Shown: in pieces, positions 12,039-29,170 of the stretch
Position numbering within the stretch: the first letter of the stretch is position 1
Layout of the letters: each line of letters starts with the position of its first letter
DNA from: Methanoplanus limicola DSM 2279
Lineage (GTDB): Archaea; Halobacteriota; Methanomicrobia; Methanomicrobiales; Methanomicrobiaceae
NCBI RefSeq assembly: GCF_000243255.1
Contig: NZ_CM001436.1
Coordinates: 1,886,957-1,950,956, forward strand
Reading direction: 5' to 3'
Length of the DNA: 64,000 bases
Notes under the pieces: model-generated
What the model was told of the DNA's origin: nothing
Databases searched by the model: none
The model's input: only the letters and a program-made list of their open reading frames with translations
Position numbers and translations under genes: made by a program

Positions 12039-12571
12039 CTGTCAATCCTCCCATTCAAAATATTATGGAGAATTATTTGCGACTCGTCATCACCGTTATG
12101 TTGAATGTCCCGAATTTTCAAATATCCCCAAATATTTGATATGATAAAATTTATTTGTGACTTTAATTGTTGCTATTTGGATATTTGATTTGACATAATA
12201 TAAGGATTCCTGAATCAGAGAAGAGAATAATTATGAGTTGCAGGTTGATATTCGGGAAGATTTCCTTCGCACCTGCTTAACGATTGTGAGAAAAGCCAAA
12301 GTACCTCTTTCATTCCTCAGAATAATCCCCCCCAGAATAATCCTCCTCAGAATAATCATCTTCAGAATAATCATCTTCAGAATAATCATCTTCAGAATAA
12401 TCATCTTCAGAATAATCATCTTCAGAATAATCCGGTTGAACCCTGCTATTAAAAGCCGTATTCAGATTTACAAGTATTATCGAGGCGGAACAGGTGTTCA
12501 ATTCAGCCGTAATATACAAGGCAAATTAATATATATTCCAAAAAACTTCATGTCTGAAAAAGGAGGTAAAA
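12039..12571. other. Intergenic region with S-layer promoter side and tandem repeat
   Basis: On the minus strand the region should hold the promoter of the S-layer-like gene; AT-rich TATA-like sequence lies around 12125-12165. The rest contains the 15-bp tandem repeat (12318-12432) and, near 12525-12537, a TATA-like run ahead of the small basic protein gene. No larger gene is supported. Confidence 0.5.
12318..12432. repeat. 15-bp tandem repeat, about eight copies
   Basis: The unit CAGAATAATCATCTT begins at 12318, 12333, 12348, 12363, 12378, 12393 and 12408, with a partial eighth copy at 12423. The first two copies differ at their ends (ATCCCCCC, ATCCTCCT); the next five are identical. Because 15 is divisible by three, frames through it encode pentapeptide repeats, for example DYSED on the minus strand and a hydrophobic repeat on the plus strand. 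A minus-strand ORF (12310-12519) ends in this repeat but has no support as a gene. Confidence 0.95.
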
Positions 12572-12772
12572 ATGGCATTAAAGATCAAACAGCTTGAAAG
12601 AGTATCGCATAAACCACATTACAGAAGAAAAAATCTGTACGGAAGCAGATGGGAGAGAGAGGTCAGGTATCCGGAGATGAGAGCTGAAGAACATCCGGAT
12701 ATAAATTTTGAGCACCACGGATTAAGGGGCTTTAAAGGCCCGAAAAGATGGCGCAGAAAAAATTACATTTAA
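12572..12772 (+). CDS. Small highly basic protein of unknown function
   Basis: A 66-residue protein rich in Arg, Lys and His (YRRKNLYGSRWEREVRY, GPKRWRRKNYI) with no hydrophobic segment. A strong Shine-Dalgarno, AAAGGAGGT, sits five bases before the ATG, and a TATA-like stretch lies about 45 bases upstream, so it is very likely translated. The charge suggests nucleic-acid or ribosome binding, but I do not recognise a family. An overlapping upstream ATG (12550) would give a 15-residue peptide in another frame. Confidence 0.65.
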   Translation: MALKIKQLERVSHKPHYRRKNLYGSRWEREVRYPEMRAEEHPDINFEHHGLRGFKGPKRWRRKNYI

Positions 12773-19650: not shown

Positions 19651-21384
19651 TCACAATTTAAAGAGAGGGACATCAGAAAACTCAGATACATCAAACAGCC
19701 CTCTTTCAGTAATTCTTAGAGCCGGAATTACAGTCAGGGCAATGAATGAGAGGTACATAAACGGGTCTTTAACCGAACCTGTCTTTTTAGTAATCTCTTC
19801 AAGTTTTTTCAGTCCATCAATTACCTCAGCATAACTTCCGGATGACATTATCCCGCCAATATCGAGCGGGAGAACAAAACTATCATCGCCGCATACAGCC
19901 GCCATGCCGCCGGAACTCTCCCTGACAAGGTTCACTGCCCTGACGATCTCCGCATCCGATGCCCCTGCTGCAACGATGTTATGTGAGTCATGTGAGATGC
20001 TGGCGCAGATTGCACCTTCTCTGATCTTAAGACCGTTTATAAGTCCGACACCACATCCTCCCGCACGATAACGGTCGCAGACTACAGCTTTGATAATATC
20101 ACGGTTCAGATCCGGAATACCAGATGAATCAATATCCTCGACAATCAGATCTGTAATAATCTGCCCCTGGTTTATCCCGATAATTCTCGCATTTCCACTG
20201 CCGGAGATTTTGAGGTCATCCTCTGTAAGCCTTCCTGCATTAAAGACAGAATTGAAGCTGACTTTCTCATCTCTTTGGATATCTGTAAAGTTAACGCCTC
20301 TAATATATGTATCCAGAACCCTGAACTCTTCTGAGTCTGCAAGAGTACAGAAGTCTGCCCTCCTGCCCGGAGAGAGAGCGCCACGATCCTTAAGCCCAAA
20401 TCTCTCAGCCGGAGAGAGAGTTGCCATTTTAATTGCAGTTTCAGTAGATATTCCGGCTGAAACAGCTTTCCTGATACAGTCGTCTATATGCCCGTCATTA
20501 TAGAGCATATCGGCATGGCGGTCATCGGTGCAGAAAGAGCAGCGGTGCGAATTATAACAGTTTACAATACCGGCAATCTCAGAAAGATTCTTTTCGGTTG
20601 AACCTTCACGCAGGTAGATATACATCCCTTTTCTGAGCTTTTCGAGTGCTTCCTCCCGACTTACACATTCATGGTCACTCTCAATTCCCTGCGAAATGTA
20701 TGCATTGAGTTCTTTACCGGAAAGCTGTGGGGAATGGCCGTCAATAATATCAAAAATTTCAAGCTTTTTCTGTACTTCAGAGTCACCAAAGATTACTCCG
20801 GGGAAATTCATCATCTCACCAAGTCCGATTATACTCTCGCTGGCTGCCAATTCCTTTAAAGCTTCAGAATCAAGATCTGCCCCTGCCCTGTCCATAGGGG
20901 TTGCAGGGACACAGGCTGGAGCCATATAATAAAAAGAAAGCGGTGTCTTTTCAGAATCACGTATCATAAAATTGACACCCTCAATGCCTGCAACATTTGC
21001 TATCTCATGCGGGTCCGCAATCACTGCCGTTGTCCCGTGCGGGATTACAAGCCGTGCATATTCAAAAGGTGTAAGGAGTGAACTCTCGATATGCACATGC
21101 GAGTCAATAAGTCCGGGAATAACTTTCGCACCCTTCAGGTCAATATATCTCTCTGCCCTGTAACCGGACCCCGGATTGTTTTCGGCACTGTTTTCAGAAC
21201 TTTCTGAACCGGAAACATCCCCTTCACTATCAGCAATTCCGACAATAATTCCGGATTTCACAAAAAAATCAAGTTTCAGCCATTCGCATGTAAAAGGATT
21301 GAATAAAATTCCGTTTAAAAAACCGATATCTGCCTTCTCTTCTCCGAGTGCAGATTTAAGAAGTTTTACATCCGGAGTCATCAT
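19651..21384 (-). CDS. ade: Adenine deaminase
   Basis: A 577-residue amidohydrolase that hydrolyses adenine to hypoxanthine and ammonia for purine salvage. Metal-binding DSHVHIESSLLTPFEYARL (residues ~95-113), HGTTAVIADPHEIANVAG (~119-136), and the CTDDRHADML Asp/His motif (~290) all match Ade-type enzymes, as does the C-terminal domain with SISHDSHNIVAAG. Length is normal for the family. Its ATG overlaps the stop of the upstream lipoprotein gene by four bases (ATGA), so the two are one operon. Confidence 0.95.
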   Translation of the reverse strand: MMTPDVKLLKSALGEEKADIGFLNGILFNPFTCEWLKLDFFVKSGIIVGIADSEGDVSGSESSENSAENNPGSGYRAERYIDLKGAKVIPGLIDSHVHIESSLLTPFEYARLVIPHGTTAVIADPHEIANVAGIEGVNFMIRDSEKTPLSFYYMAPACVPATPMDRAGADLDSEALKELAASESIIGLGEMMNFPGVIFGDSEVQKKLEIFDIIDGHSPQLSGKELNAYISQGIESDHECVSREEALEKLRKGMYIYLREGSTEKNLSEIAGIVNCYNSHRCSFCTDDRHADMLYNDGHIDDCIRKAVSAGISTETAIKMATLSPAERFGLKDRGALSPGRRADFCTLADSEEFRVLDTYIRGVNFTDIQRDEKVSFNSVFNAGRLTEDDLKISGSGNARIIGINQGQIITDLIVEDIDSSGIPDLNRDIIKAVVCDRYRAGGCGVGLINGLKIREGAICASISHDSHNIVAAGASDAEIVRAVNLVRESSGGMAAVCGDDSFVLPLDIGGIMSSGSYAEVIDGLKKLEEITKKTGSVKDPFMYLSFIALTVIPALRITERGLFDVSEFSDVPLFKL

Positions 21385-21740
21385 TCAACACCAATATCCC
21401 TAATCTCAGCCACTTTGCGTTCATTATTCTCAATCAGGTATATATATAGCTTATAATCACCCTTTTTTAGTTTAACCGGAACTGAAACCATATTTGAACC
21501 TGTTTTAAGATGTATATCCTCAACATATTTCCCGATCTCAATCTGCCTGAAATCAGCGAGATCAAATACAGTAACCTGTACATATGCATCTGTCTCTTCA
21601 CCGGAATTGGTAATCTCAATATTTAAGAGAGGATAACTGTACTCCACAACTCCAAAAGATGTCTCAAGACATCCGGCTGAGAATATTACAATTACCAGCA
21701 TCAAAGGAATTAGTATCAACTTTCCCCTGGCAGAGGTCAT
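21381..21740 (-). CDS. Small predicted lipoprotein
   Basis: A 119-residue protein with a hydrophobic signal (LILIPLMLVIVIFSAGC) ending in a lipobox-like Cys at about residue 24. The rest is a compact beta-sandwich-like domain (LLNIEITNSGEETDAYVQVTV, MVSVPVKLKKGDYKLYIYL) similar to FxLYD or CARDB-type extracellular domains. No specific family is recognised. It overlaps the ade start by four bases; the functional link is unclear. Confidence 0.75.
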   Translation of the reverse strand: MTSARGKLILIPLMLVIVIFSAGCLETSFGVVEYSYPLLNIEITNSGEETDAYVQVTVFDLADFRQIEIGKYVEDIHLKTGSNMVSVPVKLKKGDYKLYIYLIENNERKVAEIRDIGVE

Positions 21741-22060: not shown

Positions 22061-22097
22061 AAAGGATAGTACAAAAGAAATATAAAGGTGAAATATC

Positions 22098-22940
22098 ATT
22101 TCAGTAATTACTTTTGTTCATCATAAAGGTGGGACCGGAAAAACCACATCGTGCCTGAATATTGGAGGTTTTCTTCAGAAATCCGGAGAGAAAGTTCTGA
22201 TAATTGACTGTGATCCACAGGCCAATGCAACAATCGGACTTGGAATTAACCCTGATGAACAGGACATTAATATGTATGACGTCTTCATGAACGTCTTTGA
22301 GGGATTTCCGGATGTGACAATAAAAGATGTCATTAAAGAGACAAAATCCGGAATATTCCTCGCGCCTTCATCTCTTGACCTTGTAGGGGTTGAACCTTAT
22401 CTGTATAATATTGAGGACCGTTCTTTTGTCCTAAAAGAAGCTTTAAACTCTCTTCCTGATGAATATGACCATATACTGATAGATACACCTCCAAGTATGG
22501 GCCAGTTTGTCCTGAACGGGCTGATAGCCGCCGACAGGATCATTATTACTCTTGACAGCAGTTTTTTTGCAGGATACGGTGTTGAAAGTCTCACAACAAT
22601 TTTTTCAGATATTGAAGAGAGTATAGGCAAAAAAAGAAGTGCAGATATGGCAATTATCACAAAAACAGGTGAACTTCAGGAGGTTAAAGCCCCCGTAAAT
22701 GAGATGATTGAATCTTTCAGGAGGCTTTTGTCCGGTAAAAAAGAGAAATTTGATGAAAATACCCTTCTTGACGAGATAGAATCAGATCTCAGGATAAATG
22801 TAAAAGAGATCTGCACAGTCCCATATGATTTTAAAATAATATATTCACAGAAAGAAAATATGCCCATATCACACATAAATCCAGAATCCAGAGCAGCAAA
22901 AAGTTATAAAGAGATATCAGACATTGTCAGAAATTGGTGA
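22098..22940 (+). CDS. ParA/MinD-family ATPase, probable chemoreceptor-positioning protein
   Basis: The protein has 280 residues if translation starts at ATT 22098. The deviant Walker A KGGTGKTT lies at residues ~10-17, with IIDCDPQANAT (A') and ILIDTPPSMGQF (Walker B) further on, as in ParA proteins that segregate DNA or other cargo. There is no N-terminal HTH, so it is the small non-plasmid type. The first ATG in frame (22272) would delete the Walker A and cannot be right. Upstream of VITFVHHKGGTGK there are only ATC (22095) and ATT (22098) before an in-frame TGA at 22089; a GGTGA at 22087-22091 lies six bases before the ATT. The next gene, a soluble chemoreceptor, starts five bases after its stop and shares its GGTGA, so ATPase and receptor are translationally coupled. 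Confidence 0.85.
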   Translation: MSVITFVHHKGGTGKTTSCLNIGGFLQKSGEKVLIIDCDPQANATIGLGINPDEQDINMYDVFMNVFEGFPDVTIKDVIKETKSGIFLAPSSLDLVGVEPYLYNIEDRSFVLKEALNSLPDEYDHILIDTPPSMGQFVLNGLIAADRIIITLDSSFFAGYGVESLTTIFSDIEESIGKKRSADMAIITKTGELQEVKAPVNEMIESFRRLLSGKKEKFDENTLLDEIESDLRINVKEICTVPYDFKIIYSQKENMPISHINPESRAAKSYKEISDIVRNW

Positions 22941-22945
22941 TTTAA

Positions 22946-25900
22946 TTGAGTGATGACCAGCCAAGAATGAAAAGACCGGGAAGAAAAGCCTTGTTTGCCG
23001 GAGCACAGACGGAAATTCCGGAGAGAAAACCTGAAAAAAATGCAGAACTCATAAAATTTATTGATGAGTTCAGAAGGGTATCCGGAGAATATATTAAAGG
23101 GAATACCGATGCAAGGCTTAAAGACAGCTATTCTGAAAAAGACCTGTCAGATATTGCATCACTTACAAACTCAATACTGGATATTTCATCTGAAAAATCT
23201 TCAGAAATGCTGATCAGTTCAGATAAAGAGGAAGAATATAAGCAGAAGATCAGTGAACTTGAAGCCAGAATAAATGAACAGATATCTGTTAAAGAGAAGG
23301 AAATAGGAATTTTAAAGCAGGAAATAAAGGAATACGAACAGAATAAACCGGAAATCTCCGGGTATGAGAGTGATATTCAGAGCCTTAAGGAAAAGACAGA
23401 AGAATTAAAGGATATAATAAAAGAACTTGAGTCGGAAAATAAAAACTTAAAAGATCTGCTCAATGAGAAGGATTCACTGATTGATAAATTTAAGAAGGAC
23501 ATCTCTTCAATCCGGAAAAAAATAGAAGAGGAAAAAAAGGTCTCTTTTGAAAAAGGCCTGAATTCCGGAAGGGAAGAGAAAGATAAGGAAATATCAGATA
23601 TTAAAAGGTCAGTTCAGAGCGAAAATGACAAATTTTATAAAAAAGGTCTGGATAAAGGTCTTGAAGAGAAAAATAATGAGATAAACAGGCTTAAAATGTC
23701 CTTTGAAGAATTAAAGGGCAGCGTATTTGATGAAGGATATAACAAAGGGGCAGAAGAGGGGTATGAAAGAGGGAGCAATGACGGATATAAGAGGGGAAAT
23801 AATGAAGGATATGAAAGGGGGACTGAAAACAGTAAAGATGAACTGAAGCTGAAGAACGATAAAATCGAGGAGCTCAGTTTACTATTAAAAGATAATAAAA
23901 AGATAATAGATAATTTAAATGAGAAAATAACCTCAAAAGAATCAGAATTGTCAGTAAAAAGTTCTGAGACTGAAGAGATAAAGTCTCAGCTGAGAGGTAA
24001 GGAATCAGAAGTTAAGGCGATTGAATCAGAACTTGCAGAGAAAAATGCAGAGATTGAGAAGATAAAGTTACAGCTGGAAGAGAAGAACAATGAAACTGAA
24101 CTGATAAATTCACTTTTATCAGAGAAAATTTCAGAGACTGAAGAGATAAAATCCCGGCTGACAAAAAGAGATTCTGAGACTGAAGAGACAGTATCGCAGT
24201 TAGCTGAGATAAATAACGAAAATAAAATAATCAGAGAGCAGCTGGAAGAGATAAGAACACAGCTGGAGGAGAAGAGCAGGGAGACTGAAGAGATAAGAAC
24301 ACAGCTGGAAGAGAAGAGCAGAGAGACTGAAGAGACAGTATCGCAGTTAGCTGAGATAAATAACGAAAATAAAATAATCAGAGAGCAGCTGGAGGAGAAG
24401 AGCAGAGAGACTGAAGAGATAAGAACACAGCTGGAGGAGAAGAGCAGAGAGACTGAAGAGACAGTATCGCAGCTAGCCGAGATAAATAACGAAAATAAAA
24501 TAATCAGAGAACAGCTGGAGGAGAAGAGCAGAGAGACTGAAGAGACAGTATCGCAGTTAGCCGAGATAAATAACGAAAATAAAATAATCAGAGAGCAGCT
24601 GGAAGAGAAGAGCAGAGAGACTGAAGAGATAAGAACTCTGATTTCTGAGAAAGAACTTGAGATCAATAAATTAAAATCTGAGCTGCAGGAGAGTAATTCC
24701 GGATATCAAATAAAGGAATCTGAACTTACAGAGAAAGATTCCAGAATCCGGAAAACAGAATCAGAACTTGCAGAACTTAAAGAGAAATATGAAAATCTCA
24801 GAGAATCTGCTTATAATGAAGGCTTTAGTAAAGGATTAAATGAAGCTGAAAATAAAAACTCAGACGAAATAAGAAGATTTAATATTGAAAATGAAAATAT
24901 TGCCTCCGGATTCAGGGATTTAAAAGAAGAACTGAAGAGAAAGGAAGAATTATTCGATATAAAAAGAGAAGAACTGGAAAATAATATAAAAAGAACAGAA
25001 AACCGGTTTGAGACAGTAATAAAGGAAAATCCGATGCCGGCTCTACTTCTGGATAATAATTTAAGAATTATACAGAGCAGCAGAGAATTTGAAAAACTGA
25101 GCAGCCTTAATGAATACAGATTAACCGGAAGAAACATCGGGGAATTCAAAATAACAGTATTAAAAGGGGATAAACTCTCCTCAGTTATAGAGAGAAAAAC
25201 TCCGGCAGACTCTGAAATAAAAATCCAGTTCCCTTCCGGAGAACACATCCTGAATCAGCATGCTATTCCCTTAAAAGAGAGAGACGGGACAATATCCGGA
25301 GTTATTCTAATCTGCAATGACATAACCTCAACCAGAGAGAAGGAAGAGATATTAAACAGAAAGCTCCGGCAGAACGAAGAACTCAAAAAACGCTCAGAAA
25401 CAATCGTACAGGAAAATCCAATGCCGATTCTTCTTGTTGATAACAAATTCAATATTATTGTCACAAACAATGCCTACGAAAATATGAGCGGAATATCCCG
25501 GCAGAAACTGCTGAAGATGAATGCAAGGGACTTCAAACTTGTCTCTCAGGAAGGAGAAGGCCTGAATACAGCCTTCAAAAATAAAAAGAGAAGTTACGGC
25601 GAGGTTACAGTTGATCTGCCCTCGGGCCGCCACATCCTGGAACAATATGCCATACCTGTTCCGGACAGTAACGGCAATGTAAATACACTCCTGATCGTAT
25701 ATAATGAAATTACCAAAATCCGGGCAAAAGAGAGAGAAATTCAGGAATTAATGGAGAAATCAAGGACGGAAGCGAAAAAGCTCTCAGAAAGTGCTGAACT
25801 ATTCAGGGGCCGGATGAAATTAATTGCATCAGGCGATCTGACAGTGTCAGCAGAAATAACCGAAGACGATCCACTTTATGAACTTAAAACTGATTTCAAC

Positions 25901-26863
25901 AACTCCATAAATGAAATTAACAGCCTTCTGATTAACGTAGGCAAAAATATTGATCTGATTGACGAAACATCCGGAGAACTGAGCGGCAACAGCAGAAAAA
26001 TATTATCTGCAACGGAAAAACTTGCAGCAAATTCCGGAGAATCCGCTGAATCCAACAGTAAGATAATAGATCTCTTCGGTGAGATCAGCATGGGAATAAC
26101 CGACCTCTCTGCCTCAATAGAAGAGATATCCGGAACAAGTCAGGAAGTGATGGAGCAGGCAAAGAAAGTCACTGAAGAAGGGAAATCTGCTGCTGAAATC
26201 GGTAAAAACGCATCAGGAAAGATTGAGAATGTAGGCATAATATCAAAGAAAAGTGTAGACGAGATAAATGCATTAAATGAGGAGATGTACAAAATAAACG
26301 ACATTGTCAGGTTAATTGCCGGAATTGCCGAGCAGACAAATCTTCTTGCCCTGAATGCTGCAATTGAAGCTGCACGCGCAGGTGAACACGGGCGTGGATT
26401 TTCAGTAGTAGCTGAAGAGATCAGAAACCTCGCCCGCGAATCAAAAGGTGCAACCAGAAATATTGAGGATTTGATAGCCGAGATTCAGAAAAACAGTGAG
26501 AAGACAACCGAATCTATGAAGAAGGTTGATGAAGAGATAACTGACAGCATAGGCAGTGTAAATCTTGCAATTGATGCCCTCAATAATATTGTAAATGATA
26601 TAGGTGGAGCGACAACCGGCATAATTGAAATAACAAAAGCTACAGAAAACCAGGCAGACGAGACCAACAAATTCCTTGAAAATATCGAAAAAGCCAACAG
26701 AATGGCAGATAAAAATCTTAGATCTGTAAAAAGCATATCCGATTTTGCAGAAGATATTAATGCAAGTACAGAAGAGGTCAGCAGCATTTCACATGAACTT
26801 CATAAGATGTCAGCCGACCTTGAAGGGATGATGAAGAAGTTTAAACTGAAATCACCAAAGTGA
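22946..26863 (+). CDS. Large soluble methyl-accepting chemotaxis protein with coiled coil and two PAS domains
   Basis: A 1305-residue protein from TTG 22946 (GGTGA five bases upstream). No transmembrane helix or signal is visible, so it is cytoplasmic. Order: basic N-terminal peptide ([12 protein letters not shown], residues 8-19); long coiled coil (~90-680) with glycine-spaced segments ([17 protein letters not shown], ~265-285) and near-identical repeats (~410-565); PAS 1 (~690-800); PAS 2 (~815-925); a HAMP-like stretch (~950-1000, [20 protein letters not shown]); MCP signalling domain with hairpin [20 protein letters not shown] (~1128) that binds CheW and CheA in known receptors. The gene follows a ParA-family ATPase and precedes cheR. 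The N-terminal basic peptide resembles peptides by which ParB-type partners stimulate ParA; that is inference. Confidence 0.92.
24166..24640 (+). repeat. Near-identical repeats inside the chemoreceptor coiled coil
   Basis: An 84-base block encoding [24 protein letters not shown] occurs four times, beginning near 24178, 24325, 24457 and 24541, interleaved with shorter 42-base blocks encoding [17 protein letters not shown] identity between copies is almost complete, with scattered silent changes (tta/cta, gct/gcc). This points to recent expansion or gene conversion of the coiled coil. Confidence 0.9.
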
Positions 26864-27107
26864 CCAGATATTTCCGGATAACGCTCAGCAGCTCTCATAT
26901 AATCTGCTTATCAGCCAGACTGCCTGTAACAGATATAATACCTTTTTTTAATACCCGGCAAAAAAACATTCCGGAAAACAAAGAGACCGGCCTGAAAAAT
27001 ATATTATCTCCATCACAGTAATTACAGTCCGGATTATTCCGGGAAACAATACACTGATTGATAAATAATAAAGAACAAAATATAATCCGGGTCTAAGTGA
27101 TAATAAA

Positions 27108-27905
27108 ATGTCAGATGCAGAATTTCAGAATTTAAAGAGAACAATACAGAAACTCCTGAATATCCAGTGCGGAAGCTACAAAGAGGATTATATTAAAAGA
27201 AGGGTTCTCTCAAGGATGAGAATTACCGGAAAAACAGAATACAGTGACTACAACAAAATTCTGCTCTCTGATCAGAAAGAACAGGAACTCCTAAGAAATG
27301 CCCTGACAATAAACGTCACCAAATTCTGGCGGGACAGGGAAGTCTTTGACCTCCTTAAAAGTGACATAATTCCGGGTATAATAAACAAAAAAGGAAGGAT
27401 CAGAATCTGGAGCGCAGGGTGTGCAACCGGGGAAGAACCCTACACACTTGCAATAATACTGTATGATTTAACAAGACTGAAGGCAGACACACAGATAACC
27501 ATATTTGCGACTGATCTTGACAGAGAAGCCCTGAATAAAGCAAAAACCGGTATATATGATAAAAGGTCACTGGAAAACCTAAGTGAGGGACAGATAAGAA
27601 GACATTTTTCAGAAATGCCTGACGGTAAATTCGAGATGAAAAAACATATCAAAGATATGATCAGATTTTCTCAGCACGACCTTATGAGCGGAAAACCGGT
27701 CAGCAACTACCTTGATATGATTCTCTGCCGGAATGTTACCATATATTTCACTGAAAAACAGAAGAATGACCTTGCAAGAATGTTTCACCCGGCACTTGTC
27801 CAGAACGGTTTTTATGTAATGGGCAAGACAGAATTCCTCGGTCGTGAAGTTGAGGAATTATATGAAGCTCATGACGCACTACAGAAAGTATTCATAAAGA
27901 AATAA
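27108..27905 (+). CDS. cheR: Chemotaxis protein methyltransferase CheR
   Basis: A 265-residue SAM-dependent glutamate methyltransferase acting on MCPs. The N-terminal helical domain (residues 1-85; YIKRRVLSRMRI) is followed by the methyltransferase fold with RIWSAGCATGEEPYTLAI (~105-122, SAM loop), IFATDLDREAL, and the MILCRNVTIYF motif (~205). NVTKFWRD replaces the usual NxTxFFRD with a conservative change. It lies 244 bp after the soluble MCP on the same strand, with its own AT-rich leader, and its natural substrate is that receptor. Confidence 0.93.
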   Translation: MSDAEFQNLKRTIQKLLNIQCGSYKEDYIKRRVLSRMRITGKTEYSDYNKILLSDQKEQELLRNALTINVTKFWRDREVFDLLKSDIIPGIINKKGRIRIWSAGCATGEEPYTLAIILYDLTRLKADTQITIFATDLDREALNKAKTGIYDKRSLENLSEGQIRRHFSEMPDGKFEMKKHIKDMIRFSQHDLMSGKPVSNYLDMILCRNVTIYFTEKQKNDLARMFHPALVQNGFYVMGKTEFLGREVEELYEAHDALQKVFIKK

Positions 27906-28390: not shown

Positions 28391-29170
28391 GTGGATAAAA
28401 GGGACATAATCACCTTTCTTGTTGCCATAGGAATTGTTGCAGGAATTGCGATGATAATAAATCCTCCGGACTTTGGCGATGGGGATACCTCAATATCGGG
28501 CGCTGCCGCAGGCGGAGATACATGCACTGACTCATCATGCTGTACGGCCGGCCCGCACTATACATACAGCACAACCCCGCTGGAACCACCTTTCAGAATA
28601 TTTTACAACTATGATATTGACTCAATATATTCCCCCGGGCCCTCAGGATATCCAAGGCTGCACCTCCCAAAAAACCTCTATCTGCCTGAAAGTGAAATCT
28701 TTACCCCCGAACATATCAAATACCATTCATTCTCAGATATGGACAGATACCTCTCATCAGATCTCTTCTCATCATCAATATGGGGCAATAAAAATGTGTA
28801 TGTCAAAAAATTTGCATATATGAACGGGAACTACAGCGGCTATTCTGAGATATTTGGTGTCCCATATGACCTGTGGCGGATAAATTCAAAGATGAACCCT
28901 GCCAAAGGTCAAAGTCTGCTCTACTCCTCATTTCAGTGGATTTTAGTTGACGCATCAACGGGCGATATTGTAACCGGAGGAAACATCCAGAACAACGGAA
29001 GCATAGTCAGGAAAGTTGAATCAGGAGACAGGAAATACTACTTCATAATAGAGGCAGAGAACATACTTGACTTTGAATTAAACCTTGAAACTCCGGAAAC
29101 CTCTTACTACCAGCAGCAGATCCAGCCGGAGATGTATAAGATCAAAGACATGCTCAGCACTATGGATTAA
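28391..29170 (+). CDS. Membrane-anchored extracellular protein of unknown function
   Basis: A 259-residue protein starting at GTG 28391. One N-terminal hydrophobic segment (ITFLVAIGIVAGIAMII) would export it and keep it anchored. A short Gly/Ala/Cys-rich stretch follows (GAAAGGDTCTDSSCCTAG), with three Cys that could be disulphide-bonded or bind metal. The rest is a tyrosine- and serine-rich domain with beta character. I do not recognise a family. The start has no Shine-Dalgarno; a TATA-like run about 30 bases upstream suggests a leaderless message. Confidence 0.6.
   Translation: MDKRDIITFLVAIGIVAGIAMIINPPDFGDGDTSISGAAAGGDTCTDSSCCTAGPHYTYSTTPLEPPFRIFYNYDIDSIYSPGPSGYPRLHLPKNLYLPESEIFTPEHIKYHSFSDMDRYLSSDLFSSSIWGNKNVYVKKFAYMNGNYSGYSEIFGVPYDLWRINSKMNPAKGQSLLYSSFQWILVDASTGDIVTGGNIQNNGSIVRKVESGDRKYYFIIEAENILDFELNLETPETSYYQQQIQPEMYKIKDMLSTMD

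Follow-up and report, generated by a model that had tools for sequence, protein, structure and literature searches.

A ParA-type ATPase and a portable N-terminal tag as a candidate positioning or anchoring module for soluble chemosensory arrays in archaea

In Rhodobacter sphaeroides, the ParA-like ATPase PpfA is encoded with the che genes and acts together with the N-terminus of TlpT (PMC3964821). In Vibrio, the ParA-like ATPase ParC works with the adaptor ParP, which combines an N-terminal ATPase-binding part with a C-terminal array-integrating domain (PMC5706961). For the placement and inheritance of soluble chemosensory arrays in archaea, the only tested case that we found is Haloferax volcanii, where chemotaxis arrays and archaella depend on the ParA/MinD ATPase MinD4 (and MinD2) for being placed correctly (PMC11588486). 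Here we analyzed a 64,000-nucleotide stretch (the window; contig NZ_CM001436.1) of the complete 3.2 Mb genome of Methanoplanus limicola DSM 2279, in which a ParA-type ATPase gene (parA) adjoins the gene of a soluble chemoreceptor, or methyl-accepting chemotaxis protein (MCP), that carries a short N-terminal tag, GRKALF. We propose, with a probability of roughly 0.78, that ParA and tag form an archaeal module for positioning or anchoring chemosensory arrays. Gene linkage, conservation and mobility of the tag, intact ATPase motifs and co-occurrence with soluble receptors support this proposal.

The parA gene (22098 to 22940, forward strand) has 280 codons and matches Pfam AAA_31 (E=4e-47). Its product retains the deviant Walker A motif KGGTGKTT (22125 to 22148, forward strand), DCDPQ and IDTPPS, the signs of the ParA/MinD superfamily (KGGxGK[ST] with the signature lysine, DxDPQ and Walker B), and the Walker A signature and catalytic lysines are invariant in all 89 archaeal family members. 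The AlphaFold2 (AF2) model of the protein has a predicted local distance difference test (pLDDT) score of 85.9 and the Soj fold, and its best PDB matches are Soj/ParA. Against the archaeal MinD model TIGR01969 the protein (P0001) scores 77.9 bits, below the cut-off of 201.75. In the ParA tree the archaeal chemosensory ParAs form a distinct clade relative to bacterial Soj (support 100/100).

The receptor gene (22946 to 26863, forward strand) encodes 1305 amino acids from a TTG start codon. An earlier note on this DNA had described a ParA with intact Walker motifs five bases before a receptor of this length lacking membrane helices, and reading frames, Pfam matches and hydropathy confirm each point; no membrane helix was found in the receptor, in which no 19-residue stretch exceeds a Kyte-Doolittle value of 1.17. 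The tag lies at 22967 to 23002 (forward strand; GRKALF at 22979 to 22996) and is, from its conservation among carrier sequences, a candidate ParA-binding and ParA-activating peptide. The basic N-terminal peptide of the earlier note is real, but as given there it began at an internal ATG, codon 8 of the frame that opens with TTG.

We surveyed 150 Methanomicrobiales genomes and fetched and read 90 parA loci. At 89 of them a protein encoded beside parA has [KR]xGRKALF, or a motif very similar to it, at its N-terminus; at the 90th the contig ends before the expected tag position. When 86 distinct carriers are aligned on the motif, G, R and L are present in 86/86, F in 85/86, A in 83/86 and K in 76/86, and a basic residue stands two positions before the G in 84/86. 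Alignment columns outside the tag drop to about 1 bit, so that the peptide to which the earlier note had pointed is conserved while the remaining N-terminus diverges.

The exact GRKALF codon pattern is found near parA in 65 of the 78 genomes that carry the gene. Ten of the remaining 13 have a variant tag such as GRQALF, GRMALF, GRRALF or GRKTLF (the last in G135), two have GRKVLL and GRRGLF, both on CheW proteins, and one has the cut contig. Away from parA, the pattern occurs about 0.3 times per genome, equally with and without parA, and of 20 distant matches that we inspected, none encoded the N-terminal end of a CheW protein or MCP. The M. limicola genome contains the pattern once, on one of its 18 MCP genes. 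The concentration at parA loci, the low background and the 20 distant sites rule out a chance motif.

The tag is not bound to one kind of protein. Across genera its carrier is the parA-adjacent MCP, a second MCP or a PAS-CheW protein. Methanoregula-like genomes have an untagged MCP next to parA and carry the tag on a second MCP behind a CheW gene; these loci had been candidates for tag-less ones until the tag was found on that second receptor. In other genera of family f5 it stands at the start of a protein that ends in a CheW domain (E values from 1e-26 to 1e-30), with PAS domains recognizable in part and a separate MCP behind it present or absent. Tag and CheW domain are joined in eight family f5 loci, and in one genome (G069, locus L147) an untagged MCP is followed by a tagged PAS-CheW protein. 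On the ParA tree the CheW-carrier state needs two changes, that is, at least two switches. The tag thus belongs to the parA locus and not to one protein. The earlier note had taken the receptor itself as the partner of the ATPase, which would fit the tagged receptor of the window but is too narrow for several genera, where a CheW adaptor or a second receptor is tagged. Fidelity to the ParA locus despite a change of carrier from receptor to adaptor is what would be expected of an ATPase handle on the array.

The same observations bear on a different role for the tag, as a direct DNA- or membrane-binding tail like that of FrzCD beside which parA would be a mere neighbor. The tag region is indeed basic, and FrzCD is reported to bind the nucleoid by means of a basic tail at its N-terminus (PMC5716589). 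However, the conservation is residue-specific (G, R, L and F) and goes beyond charge, and the pattern clusters at parA loci, inside which it shifts between proteins. We consider such a tail quite improbable.

Orthologous ParA proteins, 41-93% identical over nearly their full length, occur in 78 of the 150 Methanomicrobiales genomes. In genomes of a second class of the phylum, the ParA is about 47% identical and the gene behind it opens with IRKPGRKALFED. Most of these contigs break off within the latter gene; in the only sufficiently long one (L192) it is an MCP. A pairing private to the window genome is therefore ruled out, and its occurrence elsewhere, on which the earlier note depended, extends beyond the order. 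Judging by these sequences, the ParA-tag pair is old in the phylum. The commonest gene order is ParA, tagged MCP, (CheW) and CheR, and this synteny recurs across the order and is more than chance. MCPs are present in all 78 parA genomes, and parA is found in none of the 39 genomes that have no MCPs.

Sequence similarity to Soj could also mean that a chromosome-partition parA has come to adjoin chemotaxis genes by accident. Yet in the archaeal loci read, parA has an MCP or CheW gene as its neighbor and no parB was seen beside it (ParB was not searched for specifically), whereas parB adjoins the gene in the bacterial Soj relatives that we fetched. The absence of parA from genomes without MCPs and the MCP/CheW/CheR gene order kept across families also speak against an accident, which we find hardly credible.

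Two genomes hold additional copies. In G131 (L142/L038), the region from -7242 to -5292 relative to parA contains a second, broken parA and, behind it, a gene that opens with GRKALF; this is a duplicated module in decay. At locus L123 (G075:C1:1072394-1073233) another intact parA is paired with a tagged receptor of its own (METIGRKALFEA), in addition to the usual pair of that genome; the locus resembles Methanogenium-type loci.

How might the tag act on ParA? Known activators of ParA/MinD ATPases (ParB, MinE and PomX) do so through a short, basic N-terminal extension (PMC7993993), and in the ParB motif a central R/K is flanked by aliphatic residues (PMC12462528). The tag is best read, by analogy, as a ParB-like ATPase-activating peptide that would couple the array to ParA. 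Many short, disordered [KR]xGRKALF tags would project from the cytoplasmic array, borne by a soluble receptor built into it or, depending on the genus, by a CheW-type adaptor. ATP-bound ParA dimers would sit on a cellular surface, and the tag would bind the dimer much as the N-terminal peptide of ParB does, tethering the array. By stimulating ATP hydrolysis it would make ParA release and rebind, and the array would be held at a defined place and shared at division. Tag-ParA binding, ATPase stimulation and array positioning are the parts of this scheme drawn from the known systems.

Several points weigh against this scheme. The ParB proteins encoded beside the fetched bacterial Soj relatives begin with sequences like KRRALGKGLESLLP and RRGLGRGLDALL. 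Although the tag KRPGRKALF looks similar, its GR-AL spacing is two residues shorter, and a likeness of this kind does not by itself amount to homology. When ParA and tag were modeled with AF2 as a single chain, following the natural read-through frame across the parA stop (a modeling device only), the tag stayed undocked and disordered (pLDDT about 31), an uninformative result, since binding at the ParB site requires a dimer of ParA. A further 33 Methanomicrobiales genomes have MCPs without this ParA, and arrays can therefore do without it. Finally, the sampled genomes are related and their counts are not independent.

ParA might instead regulate the assembly or activity of the receptor array and not its position. 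Vibrio ParP couples array formation with localization (PMC5706961), and genomes with a single MCP have kept precisely the ParA-linked, tagged receptor. Positioning is the function of those known ParA/MinD partners that have a peptide of this kind, although the present data do not separate the two roles; we regard a purely regulatory role as improbable.

We then considered the surface on which ParA would work, the least certain part of the positioning or anchoring model. Caulobacter ParA binds DNA through R195 and R224, which are conserved in several relatives and have counterparts implicated in PpfA and PomZ; its R221, V223 and R224 match DNA-contacting residues of Helicobacter pylori ParA (PMC7229837). 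We located the arginine columns in the Soj set by their spacing (26 residues from R195 to R221 and 29 from R195 to R224). The equivalent columns are basic in 0/89, 0/89 and 5/89 archaeal ParAs, from which alignment the Soj-type DNA-binding arginines are lost in this family, and the median net charge of the family is -12. These values count against a ParA that binds DNA non-specifically and ratchets the array over the nucleoid, as PpfA and TlpT do (PMC3964821). On the other hand, the closest solved structures are DNA-binding Soj/ParA proteins, R189, K113 and K/R271 are mostly basic in the archaeal family, and some ParAs bind DNA through another face (PMC7229837). Taken together, we judge nucleoid riding rather unlikely. 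Of the counterpart to PpfA suggested in the earlier note, parA, soluble receptor and basic peptide stand, while the nucleoid-riding part is unsupported.

All members of the ParA family have a sequence-variable insertion beside the first arginine column, which is short in the outgroup class. In the window ParA this segment (VNEMIESFRRLLSGKK; 22695 to 22742, forward strand) is a predicted flexible amphipathic helix similar to the membrane-targeting helix of MinD, GFLKRLFGG. The insertion usually holds FLKRIF, FRRLLG, LKQLFF or similar, and the pattern Phi-[KRHQN]-x-Phi-Phi is found in 19 of 30 representatives, compared with 10% after shuffling. Two of the 19 matches lie off the helix core, that of the window ParA (VNEMI) among them, which leaves about 17 in register. 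The helical hydrophobic moment of the insertion alone gave no clear separation; the pattern comparison did. In the AF2 model of the window ParA, a helix at residues 201-210 lies within a low-confidence flexible loop (192-217), and a family-f4 member shows the same arrangement in its model.

The resemblance of this modeled helix to that of MinD hints at membrane binding by ParA, and a membrane tether is plausible. Given the missing Soj/PpfA arginines and the amphipathic helix inserted next to their site, membrane is our first guess and nucleoid the second. A fuller account, in which receptors became soluble while ParA traded DNA binding for a membrane-inserting helix and, as a MinD-like ParA, anchors the array via the portable GRKALF handle, is tentative, with odds that we put somewhat below even.

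The receptors themselves differ between genomes with and without parA. Among sampled non-tagged MCPs, membrane helices were found in 1/21 from parA genomes versus 14/20 from genomes without parA (Fisher P=1.4e-5, indicative only, as best-scoring matches were sampled and the genomes are related). In the window genome, membrane helices are clear in one of the 17 other MCPs. ParA thus goes with soluble receptors, which is consistent with a ParA that holds arrays not anchored in the membrane by themselves.

The start of parA deserves attention. Because no ATG, GTG or TTG precedes the Walker A box in the window parA, its start must be non-canonical, at ATT (22098), behind the Shine-Dalgarno sequence AGGTGA (22086-22091; both elements within 22086 to 22100, forward strand). 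Plain open reading frame calling places the start at 22272, with loss of the P-loop. ATG, GTG and TTG are likewise absent ahead of Walker A in 33 of the 89 family members, many of which have a GGTG-type Shine-Dalgarno sequence before ATT, ATA or ATC. A non-AUG start is probably recurrent in this family, whose parA genes gene callers will truncate, and perhaps it keeps ParA dosage low.

From N- to C-terminus the receptor comprises the tag, a long coiled coil, two PAS domains (25031 to 25336, PF08448, residues 696-797; 25418 to 25714, PF13426, residues 825-923) and an MCP signaling domain with its hairpin tip (26195 to 26701, PF00015, residues 1084-1252, E=5e-41), all on the forward strand. Repeat analysis identified 42-nucleotide tandem repeats at 24245 to 24636 (forward strand), near-identical copies of 42/126 nucleotides that provide extra coiled coil. 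The receptor of a congener (G001) has 1420 amino acids, 115 more than that of the window, and the length of the coiled-coil rod seems to vary.

A CheR methyltransferase gene (27108 to 27905, forward strand; PF01739, E=2e-55) follows in an order kept in most relatives. The earlier note was right about its order, but the gene starts only after a 244 bp gap past the receptor stop, while in many relatives it is close behind or overlapping. In the window it is syntenic with the parA-receptor pair and possibly has its own promoter. Behind cheR, there as in most relatives, lies a gene (28391-29170, forward strand) whose product has a single membrane helix at its N-terminus and matches no Pfam family; it may be part of the module or only of the conserved locus. 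A small predicted lipoprotein is encoded divergently from parA (21381-21740, reverse strand), and lipoprotein-like open reading frames also lie upstream on the opposite strand in relatives such as L005 and L028. An open reading frame of RIIIF/RIII repeats at 12238-12597 reflects a short-period DNA repeat and is unlikely to be a gene.

We found no published description of an archaeal ParA-tag pair in the open-licence literature, in agreement with the earlier note, which knew of no such archaeal system. The pairing may already stand, without comment, in PMC2829493, a study that lists che operons with a ppfA homologue for 77 species and whose species set includes Methanoregula boonei. New beyond the earlier note are the portable tag, the age of the pair in the phylum, the lost DNA-binding surface and the receptor solubility that tracks the pair. 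The system offers a defined ATPase, a portable candidate activating tag of about ten residues and natural cases in which the tag has swapped between two kinds of array protein. It also includes single-receptor genomes in which that receptor is the tagged one, and the model is testable with peptide and pure protein. The family also suggests that ParA-type ATPases can change their working surface.

Compared with PpfA/TlpT, the archaeal parA likewise adjoins a soluble chemoreceptor, and the partner has a conserved basic N-terminal peptide, known here from sequence, for which the TlpT N-terminus is the precedent. Unlike PpfA, which uses Soj-type DNA-binding arginines (PMC7229837), the archaeal family lacks them; the host is an archaeon, and the tag is a defined GRKALF that can also sit on a CheW adaptor. 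The archaeal tagged PAS-CheW carriers look similar to Vibrio ParP, whereas ParC/ParP arrays are polar and in the window the receptor itself bears the tag. Haloferax MinD4/MinD2 share the archaeal setting and the ATPase superfamily but are of the MinD family, below whose archaeal cut-off the window ParA falls. With chromosomal ParABS (Soj/Spo0J) the system shares the fold, the Walker motifs and a partner with a short N-terminal peptide of R/K and aliphatic residues (PMC12462528); it differs in that no ParB was seen at the archaeal loci, the DNA-binding arginines are lost and the cargo would be a sensory array.

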